From the NCBI GenBank assembly GCA_025059875.1, contig JANXCT010000004.1, positions 62,001 to 126,000 of the forward strand: a DNA stretch of 64,000 bases. The letters run 5' to 3'. Within the stretch, counting starts at the first letter, position 1. Each line of letters opens with the position of its first letter. The DNA is from Candidatus Kapaibacterium sp. Its GTDB lineage: Bacteria; Bacteroidota; Ignavibacteria; Kapaibacteriales; HRBIN21. The notes beneath the pieces were generated by a model. That model worked only from the letters and a program-made list of their open reading frames with translations, did no database searches and was not told the origin of the DNA. Shown here piece after piece: positions 26,801 through 59,581 of the stretch. The translations under genes and the position numbers were made by a program.

Positions 26801-27477
26801 TCAAAGTTGTTCCTCATCCTCTTCCCTCCCCGTCCCGTGTGCACGGTCACCAGCATCACCTAGCCCAGGCAAGGTAAAGCCCTGGGCATTAAGCCCATAG
26901 TCAATCGCTGCAGTCACGATCGGCACAGCGGGGTGATGCTGACGGAAACGCTGAATTCCTTCCGGAGCAGCAATGATGCATACGGCCGTCAACGACGTTG
27001 CTCCCTGATGCCGCAGGAACTCTACTGCTGCTTGCATACTCCCCCCTGTAGCCATCATGGGGTCCAGGACAAAGACCCGTGCTTCCGGCTGTAACGGCGG
27101 GAGATTAGCGTAGTAGAGCTCTGGCTCTAAGGTCTGCTCGTTGCAGCGTAGTCCAAGGTAGCCAATTCGAGCCTCGGGGAACAGTCGTAGGAAGGCCGGC
27201 AGCAGGAGCATCCCAGCGCGAAGAACTGGTACCAGTACGAGGGCTCCACCTGCCGATAGGCTACTGTCCGGCAGAGCGGGGTCTCTACCTCCACGGGCTC
27301 GAGTGTTAACCGTGTCGTCGCTGCAGCCGCTAAATAGAAACCCAACCGCTCGGCTGCAGCACGAAACTCTGCCCGGCTTGTAGCCGCAGAGCGCAAGATG
27401 GCTAATTCATGGCGAGCAGCCGGATGCTCCGCAACCCAGACCCCCGGCTGCCGCTCTACCACCAGGGTGGGAACCAT
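26801..27477 (-). pseudogene. upp: Uracil phosphoribosyltransferase, broken by a frameshift
   Basis: Two frames together make one UPRT, the salvage enzyme making UMP from uracil and PRPP. The first (from ATG 27477) holds the N-terminal half (EHPAARHELAILRSAATSR, EFRAAAERLGFYLAAAATTR, VEVETPL). The second continues from VLVPVLRAGMLLLPAF through the PRPP loop VLDPMMATGGSMQAAV to GFTLPGLGDAGDRAHGT. The frame changes at the GGG at 27241-27243 (CCC on the coding strand); one extra C would restore a protein of about 225 residues. No classical slippery heptamer is present. It is either a real mutation or an assembly error. The start overlaps the tatD-fusion gene by 22 bases. Confidence 0.85.
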
Positions 27478-28841
27478 ACTAGCCCTATCCGCGGCAATGA
27501 GAGGTAGAAGCCCACCTGAGCATCCCTCTGGTTCTCGCGGCTCAGGAAGACCCGTCGTTCCTCACGGCCCAGGGCAAAATCTAGACGCCACTCCATCCAG
27601 GGCATGAACATCCCCCAGGAGGTAGGCACGTTGAAGCGAAGCCCAATTCCGGCAACAACCGCTGCCTTATTCTCAGGCCGTTCATTGATTCGATTGAAGA
27701 GTGCTGCCCCTCCAAGTGTACCGTAGAAGTTCACCCGCCCATACGGGTTCGGAGTGGCGTGGATGCACAGCTCAAGAGCCTGGTAGATGTCTGGCCGGTC
27801 TTGTCCCCACGGCCGTTGGGGGCTCTTCAGTACCTTTGTGTTCCGGGAGTACACATAGGCTGCCTCCACACTGAGGTGGTCGAGAAACTCGTAGAAGAGG
27901 TGCAGTCCAAATGCCGGCAGTCCTTCGTAGGAGAAGGTCTGATCCTCTCCCGTCGGGAAACGGCGCAACTCGACAATAGTATTCGTCGCTGCGTGGAGTC
28001 CAATCCCGAAGGACTTGGAGTACAGATGCTTCCCTACCTCTTGCGCTAGTCCCGTAGTCACGAAGAGGCAGACGGAGACAGCGAGCTTGAAGAAAGCACG
28101 TGCCACCCGTGCAGTGGTTTCTGCTACTTGTTCGAATGTCCGCCCTGTTAGTTCGGCAATCTTCTCTACGACGTAACGCACAAACGCTGGTTCGTTCCGC
28201 TTGCCACGATGGGGATGGGGAGCCATGTAAGGGGCATCGGTCTCCACCATGAGGCGATCCTCGGGCACCCGTGCTATCAATGCTGCGACGGCACTCTTGC
28301 GGTAGGTGATGTTGCCCGTTACAGAGACATGGAAGCCCAGCCTCAAAGCGCGCTGCAGGTATGCTTCGTCACCGGAGAAGCAGTGCAATACCCCTTGCAG
28401 GCTGCCATCCTGTTCCTCTTCAAGTATCCGCAACACATCCGCATGCGCATCCCGGTTGTGGATGATGACCGGCAGGTTGCAGCGCTTAGCAATCCGGAGC
28501 TGCTCTCGGAAGAGCTCCTGCTGAACCGACGGCGGAGCCAGGTCATGGTAGTGGTAATCCAGCCCAATCTCTCCGATGGCAACGACCTTAGGCATGGTCG
28601 CTTCTTCTTCCACCGCGGCTAGGGCTGCAGCATCTGCCTGCAGTGTAGCATGAGGATGGATACCTACGGCCCGGTAGACCTCTGGAAACTGGTCCGCAAT
28701 GTGCCGCGCTTTGGGAAAGCCTTGAGGGGAAATCGCTGGCATGATAACAGCCTCTACCCCGGTATCGTGAGCACGCTGTAGAACGGCAGCGCGGTCATCG
28801 TCGAAGATTGGCAGGTCTATGTGGGCATGCGTATCGATCAT
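27456..28841 (-). CDS. TatD-family deoxyribonuclease fused in frame to an outer-membrane-type domain
   Basis: Residues 1-252 are a complete TatD metal-dependent hydrolase: IDTHAHIDLP, VVAIGEIGLDYHYHD, VIIHNRDAHADV, VLHCFSGDEA and VETDAPYMAP. It ends VAETTARVARAFFKL, where the family normally stops. Instead the frame continues into a signal-peptide-like segment (AVSVCLFVTTGLAQ, about 254-267). A beta-rich region of about 190 residues follows, ending in an aromatic stretch (IGLVWFPPWW), as in small outer-membrane proteins. An in-frame GTG at 28106 (V246) would give an independent exported protein. Either a tatD stop codon has been lost or a second gene starts inside this frame. It overlaps bcp by ATGA and is followed by the broken upp. 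Confidence 0.8.
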   Translation of the reverse strand: MIDTHAHIDLPIFDDDRAAVLQRAHDTGVEAVIMPAISPQGFPKARHIADQFPEVYRAVGIHPHATLQADAAALAAVEEEATMPKVVAIGEIGLDYHYHDLAPPSVQQELFREQLRIAKRCNLPVIIHNRDAHADVLRILEEEQDGSLQGVLHCFSGDEAYLQRALRLGFHVSVTGNITYRKSAVAALIARVPEDRLMVETDAPYMAPHPHRGKRNEPAFVRYVVEKIAELTGRTFEQVAETTARVARAFFKLAVSVCLFVTTGLAQEVGKHLYSKSFGIGLHAATNTIVELRRFPTGEDQTFSYEGLPAFGLHLFYEFLDHLSVEAAYVYSRNTKVLKSPQRPWGQDRPDIYQALELCIHATPNPYGRVNFYGTLGGAALFNRINERPENKAAVVAGIGLRFNVPTSWGMFMPWMEWRLDFALGREERRVFLSRENQRDAQVGFYLSLPRIGLVWFPPWW

Positions 28842-57451: not shown

Positions 57452-57760
57452 ATGACGCGCCTTCCGCTGGAGGCGTACTTGCTCTTGTCGGCAACCCTAT
57501 TCACGATTGGGGTTGTCGGTGTGCTAACCCGCCGGAATGCCATCGTCATCCTGATGGCGATAGAGATCATGCTCAACGCCGTCAACCTTTCCCTGGTCGG
57601 CTTCTCATCGTACTTAGGGAACCCTGAGGGACAGCTGTTGGTCTTCTTCGTGATGGCTGTGGCAGCGGCGGAGGCTGCCGTCGGATTAGCAATCGTGATC
57701 GCGCTCTTCCGGAACCGGCAGACTGTCTACGTTGACGAAGTCAACATCATGCGCTGGTAA
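57452..57760 (+). CDS. nuoK: NADH-quinone oxidoreductase subunit K
   Basis: This 102-residue subunit with three helices takes part in proton pumping. It contains [36 protein letters not shown] (Glu conserved in the second helix) and [20 protein letters not shown] (the second conserved Glu). It belongs next to nuoL in most genomes; here hpnC follows. Confidence 0.95.
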
Positions 57761-57843
57761 GCCTGCCAGGTGGTGTCCAGATACCACGCAAGGAACGGTG
57801 GGAAGACCTCCAGGAGCTCTGCCGCGCCGACGGAGGCAAATAC

Positions 57844-58707
57844 ATAGTCTCTACCCTCAGCGATGCTTCACGCTTCTGTCTGCGCTGGGCTCGTCAGCAC
57901 TACGAGAATTTCCCTGTAGCCTCTCTGTTGCTGCCCCCACAGACCCGGGTTCACGTTGCCCATCTATACGCGTTCGCCCGCCTGGCCGATGATATCGCTG
58001 ACCACCCCACAGCCTCCCCAACCGAAAAACTCCAACTCCTGGAGATGCTAGAGCAGAACCTCCTCGAGGCTCTCCGAGCTGAGTCCCTTCCGGGCAACCC
58101 CGTCTTGGCAGCCTTCCGCTCCACGCTCCGCTCAACCAGGCTTCCGCTGAGCCTCCCCAAACGGTTGCTTGTGGCATTCCGCTACGATGCCTGCTTCCAA
58201 CCGTTTGCCACTTGGCAAGATGTGGAGTGGTACTGTCACCATTCAGCTAATCCGATCGGGGAGGCTCTGCTCTTCCTCCATCAGAGCTGTACTCCACAGG
58301 CCCTCTGCGCTTCCAATGCTCTCTGCACCGCACTCCAGGTGCTGAACTTCTGGCAAGACCTCTCGGTTGACCTCCCGCGCGGGCGCTGCTACTTCCCACA
58401 ACAGCTCTTAGAACGGCATGGACTCCCTGAGCCCACAGCGCTGTGGCAGAATTCTACTAAATTGCGACTGTGCCTTGCAGAGGTAGCTGCCTTTGTCCAG
58501 CAGCGACTGGAATGGGCAAAGACTCTCTGGCGAGCCGCTAGCCACCCTCGGCTACGGTGGCAGATTGCCCTGACGTTGGCTGCTGCAGATACGCTCTATA
58601 AACGCTTGGTGGATCTGGGTGACCGCGTGCTCAGCTACCGCCCACAGTTGAGTGGCATAGATGGAATTGTCCTTCTCATACGGAGTTGGCGGTACCGGAG
58701 CCGCTGA
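57844..58707 (+). CDS. hpnC: Squalene/phytoene-synthase family protein HpnC, probable AUA start
   Basis: This protein of about 287 residues cooperates with HpnD (and usually HpnE) to make squalene for hopanoids. The motifs HYENFPVASLLLPPQ, AFARLADDIAD (first Asp-rich motif) and FWQDLSVDLPRGRCYFPQ (second) are seen. The only standard start in frame is TTG 57928, but the conserved FPVAS segment is encoded upstream of it, back to SDASRFCLRWARQHY. No ATG, GTG or TTG lies between the upstream stop (57733) and 57928. ATA 57844 has GGAGG exactly 7 bases before it and is the likely start. The 3' end overlaps hpnD by 47 bases. Confidence 0.8.
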   Translation: MVSTLSDASRFCLRWARQHYENFPVASLLLPPQTRVHVAHLYAFARLADDIADHPTASPTEKLQLLEMLEQNLLEALRAESLPGNPVLAAFRSTLRSTRLPLSLPKRLLVAFRYDACFQPFATWQDVEWYCHHSANPIGEALLFLHQSCTPQALCASNALCTALQVLNFWQDLSVDLPRGRCYFPQQLLERHGLPEPTALWQNSTKLRLCLAEVAAFVQQRLEWAKTLWRAASHPRLRWQIALTLAAADTLYKRLVDLGDRVLSYRPQLSGIDGIVLLIRSWRYRSR

Positions 58708-59581
58708 GCTGCCCCCAGGTTTCTCCACCACCGCTCCATACCAAAGCAGCTTCGCCTACTCCTTTTTCCTGCTACCTCGTCCACAGCGAGAAGCCTTGGA
58801 GACCGTGTACCGCTTCGCGAATGCAGTTGATAGCCTCGTCGACAACACCCCCAACGATTCGGAAGGAGTGCTTGCCAAGAAGCGGCAGTGGCTTGCTTGG
58901 TGGCGGCACCAAGTAGAGAGCATTTACACCGGACGAGGCTTCCACCCAGCGCTCCTTCCCTTAGCCCACGTTGTGGAGCGCTTTCAAATCCCGAAGCAAT
59001 ACCTACTCCTTCTCTTGGATGGCTGCGAGCGTGATCTCGTCCAGCGACGGTACCGCACCTTCGAAGAGCTCAAGGAGTACTGCTACTGCGTTGCCAGCAG
59101 CATTGGACTCATCTGCATCGAGATCTTCGGCTACAAGCATCCCCAGACCCGCCAGTACGCAATCTACCTAGGCTACGCTCTGCAATTGACGAACATCTTG
59201 CGTGATGTCAAGCTGGACAAGGATCGGGGCTACGTCTACCTCCCCCAGGAAGATCTAGAGCGCTTTGACTACACCGAGGAGGATCTCTTCGAAGAACGTT
59301 ACGATGAGCGCTTCGTGGAGCTCATGCGGTTTGAAGCCCAGCGAGCACGAAGCTTGTACCATACCGCCCGAATGTATCTCCATCCCGATGACCGAGCCAC
59401 GCTCTTCGCTGCGGAAGCTATGGACTCCATCTACTACCGTCTGCTGGAGAAGATGGAGCTGGGAGACTTCCAAGTCTTCCGACACCGCTACCGAGTCTCA
59501 CTCCCTCACAAGCTCTGGATTGCCTTCAAGACATGGCTCTCCAGCTACCTCCTCATTCGTCGCCTTCGAAACCTGGTGTGA
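58661..59581 (+). CDS. hpnD: Presqualene diphosphate synthase HpnD
   Basis: This 306-residue enzyme condenses two farnesyl diphosphates to presqualene diphosphate. Motifs are SSFAYSFFLLPRPQREALE, FANAVDSLVDN (a DxxxD motif in which the usual DD is reduced), CYCVASSIGLICIEIFG and LQLTNILRDVKLDKDRGYVYLP. About 24 residues precede the normal family start, encoded in the overlap with hpnC. Together the pair points to hopanoid or squalene synthesis; HpnE and the squalene cyclase are not in the window. Confidence 0.92.
   Translation: MELSFSYGVGGTGAAELPPGFSTTAPYQSSFAYSFFLLPRPQREALETVYRFANAVDSLVDNTPNDSEGVLAKKRQWLAWWRHQVESIYTGRGFHPALLPLAHVVERFQIPKQYLLLLLDGCERDLVQRRYRTFEELKEYCYCVASSIGLICIEIFGYKHPQTRQYAIYLGYALQLTNILRDVKLDKDRGYVYLPQEDLERFDYTEEDLFEERYDERFVELMRFEAQRARSLYHTARMYLHPDDRATLFAAEAMDSIYYRLLEKMELGDFQVFRHRYRVSLPHKLWIAFKTWLSSYLLIRRLRNLV

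Follow-up and report, generated by a model that had tools for sequence, protein, structure and literature searches.

The hpnC gene of this Candidatus Kapaibacterium genome very probably has an AUA codon (57781-57783) at its translation start, behind a Shine-Dalgarno (SD)-like sequence and near the nuoK gene. The leading reading, to which we give an even chance, is that this AUA is a genuine, weak start coupled to nuoK; we infer from the sequence all three of its parts, namely the true presence of the AUA in the genome, its use and the help given by coupling. The initial annotation had also proposed an AUA start for hpnC, but at ATA 57844. Comparison with congeneric species retains the AUA, the SD-like sequence and the proximity to nuoK, and places the start instead at 57781. 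All coordinates are those of the window, i.e. the whole stretch of 64,000 nucleotides that was analysed. The features that bear on this start are as follows:

57452..57760, plus strand: nuoK, the gene 5' of hpnC (NCBIfam NuoK NF004322, 128.9 bits, above the cut-off of 128)
57768..57775, plus strand: SD-like sequence AGGTGGTG, with 7 of the 8 bases of AGGAGGTG, 5 nt before ATA 57781
57781..58707, plus strand: hpnC, 308 amino acids if counted from ATA 57781 (TIGR03464, 233.6 bits; Pfam SQS_PSY, 185 bits)
57781..57783, plus strand: ATA at the probable hpnC start position; the same codon is GTG in 4 of 5 congeners
57799..57843, plus strand: conserved N-terminal extension WEDLQELCRADGGKY, upstream of ATA 57844 and identical at 7-9 of 15 residues with each congener
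57844..57846, plus strand: ATA, internal Ile codon; AGG, CGG, CGT, CAG and CGC in the congeners
57928..57930, plus strand: TTG, first canonical start codon in the hpnC frame; an internal Leu codon that lies 49 codons from the start of the gene and has no SD
58661..59581, plus strand: hpnD, the gene 3' of hpnC (TIGR03465, 268.7 bits; cut-off 278.6)

Position of the hpnC start

The hpnC frame follows a TGA stop at 57733-57735 and is then open up to 58707. As first annotated, it contains no ATG, GTG or TTG before TTG 57928, and a conserved segment, HYENFPVASLLLP, is encoded ahead of that codon. Five congeners, all other species of the genus of the window genome, formed the comparison set, with the window species represented by one genome, and their hpnC genes were aligned on a conserved Trp codon, which in the window is TGG 57799. 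At exactly six codons before this Trp, four of the five congeners have GTG and the window has ATA 57781-57783. The fifth (G002) has its GTG four codons before the Trp, i.e. two codons later than the others. With the codon six places ahead of the Trp taken as the first, the window protein has 308 amino acids and those of the congeners 308, 308, 307, 307 and 307; from its own GTG the G002 protein has 305, and the congener range is then 305-308. Protein similarity changes over the same region: the window matches each congener at 0-1 of 15 residues in the codons before 57781 and at 7-9 of 15 from the Trp onward, and over these latter 15 codons the differences from four of the five congeners are mostly in the third position. 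Judged by this alignment, codon 57781 is in all likelihood the start position of hpnC.

As would be expected of a genuine AUA start, AUA occupies the codon homologous to the start of the congeners, and the frame offers no usual start codon. On the other hand, the AUA is not kept in relatives, since all five congeners start with GTG, and this counts against a genuine AUA. The observation owes its weight to the conservation of the protein far upstream of TTG 57928 and also some 20 residues upstream of ATA 57844, where the congeners display the pattern W-E-D/E-L..LC..DGG. Remoter members of the order share the N-terminal extension, mostly with an ATG start (e.g. MKFSSDELIELSTQSGGTFAV...HYENFPV). 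The HpnC proteins of Ca. Kapaibacterium SKYG35 (G005), HRbin21 (G003) and S1_Bin_METABAT_74 (G004) are 61-64% identical to that of the window and are products of the same gene. As in the window, nuoK lies directly upstream and hpnD downstream, and the proteins are of equal length from the aligned start; unlike in the window, these genes start with GTG and have weaker SD-like sequences.

The signal on which ATA 57844 had been proposed as the start is present: GGAGG at 57832-57836 is followed by 7 bases and then by ATA at 57844-57846, with a predicted duplex of -9.5 kcal/mol. Since 3.6% of random positions reach this value, the score is weak evidence by itself. As a signal, GGAGG is not conserved: it belongs to GGA GGC, the two codons for a conserved Gly-Gly, which the congeners encode as GGT GGA, GGG GGA, GGT GGC, GGG GGA and GGG GGG. 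An alignment of related genomes had been suggested as a check, and none of the five congeners has a start codon at the position of 57844. Part of the conserved protein is encoded by the 20 codons that separate the two ATAs. We regard ATA 57844 as an internal codon, because both the protein conservation and the shared extension begin upstream of it, and a start there is hardly credible. The argument from protein length, also made in favor of 57844, is correct for HpnC of other phyla, the TIGR03464 model matching the long form only from about residue 36 onward; it does not carry over to the order of the window genome, in which HpnC has an N-terminal extension.

A start further upstream, at an in-frame CTG (57763, or 57754 beside the nuoK stop), would yield a slightly longer protein. 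CTG is a permitted rare start, both of these codons are near the nuoK stop, and one congener (G001) has GTG at the place of 57754. Nevertheless, the residues upstream of 57781 are the unconserved ones (0-1 of 15) and the SDs of the two CTGs are weak (-2.9 and -1.0), which makes such a start very unlikely.

Shine-Dalgarno sequence, coupling and RNA folding

The duplex predicted between AGGTGGTG and the anti-SD of the genus (...GGATCACCTCCTTT, taken from two congeners because 16S is missing in the window genome) has an energy of -9.8 kcal/mol, versus -3.3 to -6.5 kcal/mol for the GTG starts of the congeners. This energy is reached by 3% of random window positions, a frequency at which a chance SD counts against the reading of AUA 57781 as a start. 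A better SD next to a poorer start codon would fit compensation, and this pattern, seen in one species, is consistent with it.

In the mechanism that we propose, hpnC would be translated from AUA 57781-57783, at the position occupied by GUG in the sister species. The initiator fMet-tRNA would read AUA with a third-position mismatch, and the start would be weak. A survey of codon-anticodon pairs with IF3 found that only the third base tolerates departures and that weak pairs are disfavoured (PMC10158994); IF3 is present in the window genome. Two features may compensate for the weak codon. One is the unusually good SD AGGUGGUG, 5 nt upstream of the AUA and better than that of any congener. The other is the nuoK stop (TAA 57758-57760), 20 nt upstream of ATA 57781, a distance suited to translational coupling; the two genes are also close in the congeners. 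Ribosomes that terminate at this stop could re-initiate on hpnC, and SDs are described as enhancing re-initiation after an upstream stop (PMC2268962). The predicted outcome is low-level initiation at AUA 57781, to which both the SD and the ribosomes that complete nuoK would contribute.

In a possible hairpin of 7 bp (57770-57787, GUGGUGU-CCAG-AUACCAC), the AUA is base-paired to a portion of the SD. In the folding model this small hairpin could cover both the SD and the AUA at 37 C, which may count against use of the AUA, while RNA folding around the hpnC start displays no signal above shuffles. A more elaborate and rather improbable version of the coupling has hpnC expressed only by re-initiation from nuoK, with the AUA and SD held in the hairpin; squalene synthesis in this species would then be kept low and tied to the translation of respiratory complex I.

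Identity and integrity of hpnC

The window protein scores 233.6 bits against TIGR03464 (squalene synthase HpnC), under the curated cut-off of 250.45, and for this reason it is named HpnC-like, by best match and context. TIGR03464 is by far its top family, with the HpnD family at 99 bits. Membership in the SQS/PSY group is indicated by the Asp-rich motifs ADDIAD and NFWQDLSVD, by the HYENFPV segment and by the Pfam SQS_PSY match of 185 bits, and the protein aligns with the solved HpnC structure 4hd1. The pathway context agrees as well: hpnD adjoins hpnC and hpnE is present in the genome (G000:C1:107666-108943, 355 bits, above its cut-off), and both HpnD and HpnE are intact. Each of the six genomes of the genus (G000-G005) encodes HpnE, and a hopene cyclase (TIGR01507, PF13243) was found in none of these six. 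Squalene in this genus may have another fate, such as C30 carotenoids, a route that is reported for Methylobacterium (PMC10448405).

There are no internal stops in hpnC, and its pN relative to the congeners (0.25-0.36) is similar to that of the congeners relative to one another (0.21-0.38). The dN/dS values are rough because dS is near saturation. The gene is intact and under purifying selection, and a decaying pseudogene was rejected on this substitution pattern. The same evidence bears on the suggestion that HpnC is truncated, starting from TTG 57928, or that the gene has been newly silenced, both of which we consider highly improbable. A gene caller would choose TTG 57928, since no usual start codon precedes it in the frame; it has no SD, and 49 residues would be lost, among them HYENFPVAS, which aligns with 4hd1. 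As to silencing, there is no sign of relaxed selection, though a very recent event would leave none.

Sequence error, variant or missing base

To see whether unusual starts are a general habit, start codons were surveyed automatically in 47 window genes that have matches in congeners and in 237 congener genes, part of the flagged congener genes being inspected by eye. Four of the 47 window genes were flagged: hpnC, one frameshifted gene (27241) and two genes in which the homologous position does hold a usual ATG. Thus hpnC is the only one of the 47 compared genes that clearly has no usual start. The frameshifted gene (approximately 26804-27480, minus strand) is uracil-phosphoribosyltransferase-like, a name given from its sequence rather than from a family-library match, and compared with two congeners it appears to have lost one base from a C run near 27241. 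It may be a real pseudogene or the product of an assembly indel. Most other two-frame tblastn junctions were disregarded, as they resemble stop-to-stop frames that extend into adjacent genes. The one-base indel at about 27241 is the only such defect found in 64 kb; it demonstrates at least one defect in the assembly or the genome, and this counts against the AUA reading.

The start may be at 57781 with ATG or GTG as the true codon in the organism or in the greater part of its population. The ATA would then be an error of base calling or of the consensus, or else a variant of the strain by which HpnC is reduced. We consider this somewhat unlikely; the initial annotation had already named a mutated ATG and a misread base as alternatives. 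In its favor are the GTG starts of all congeners, the single base that separates ATG from ATA and the presence of one other defect in the window. However, single-base consensus errors are usually rare, two changes would be needed to reach ATA from the GTG of the congeners, a double error is unlikely, and an error would leave the improved SD beside the ATA unexplained. A variant finds some precedent in a natural-looking ATG>ATA knock-down that arose in rpoS of laboratory-kept E. coli (PMC12864459).

Alternatively, one base could be missing, by error or in reality, between 57776 and 57798, in which case the true start would be an off-frame GTG at 57773 or 57770. Two adjacent GTG codons do occur out of frame at 57770-57775, at a distance of three to four codons from 57781 on its upstream side and 8 nt before the ATA, and the C-run indel offers a parallel in another window gene. 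With one such indel in 64 kb, a missing base near hpnC is possible and not likely. Moreover, the start would then be nine codons before the Trp, a position used by no congener, its SD would be weak (-2.9), and the ATA with a good SD at the exact homologous codon would be left as a coincidence. Taken together, these points make a missing base distinctly unlikely.

Comparison with known AUA starts

AUA starts are already known elsewhere, and hpnC would add one more. In S. aureus they were identified by ribosome profiling for infC, ccpN and citZ, and reporters for ccpN and citZ gave about 10% of the activity of AUG, with ccpN reaching up to 30% in rich medium (PMC13009471). The AUA start of ccpN is kept between S. 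aureus and B. subtilis (PMC13009471); conservation is not required for citZ. The hpnC gene resembles these three genes in having an AUA at the start position, and for infC and ccpN strong extended SDs are described next to it. It differs from these experimentally mapped starts in that its AUA occurs in one species, belongs to a biosynthetic gene after nuoK and is known from sequence alone. As a separate observation, the beginning of the infC frame in the window genome (L132) contains the codons GTG ACG ATA CAG.

For E. coli, a level of up to 1% of ATG is cited for ATA, yet with the ATG>ATA change in rpoS the protein drops by no more than 5-fold (PMC12864459). As in that case, a usual start would have been replaced by ATA in hpnC, and rpoS keeps some expression. 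The rpoS change is a laboratory-acquired mutation with a known parent, whereas for hpnC the former state is deduced from other species.

A gene caller restricted to ATG, GTG and TTG would begin HpnC at TTG 57928 and so shorten it by 49 residues, with loss of the HYENF segment. If the start at AUA 57781 is genuine, it would show that a metabolic gene of an uncultured phylum can naturally start with AUA where close relatives have GUG, next to a stronger SD, and it would provide a small test case for a good SD and translational coupling offsetting a poor start codon.
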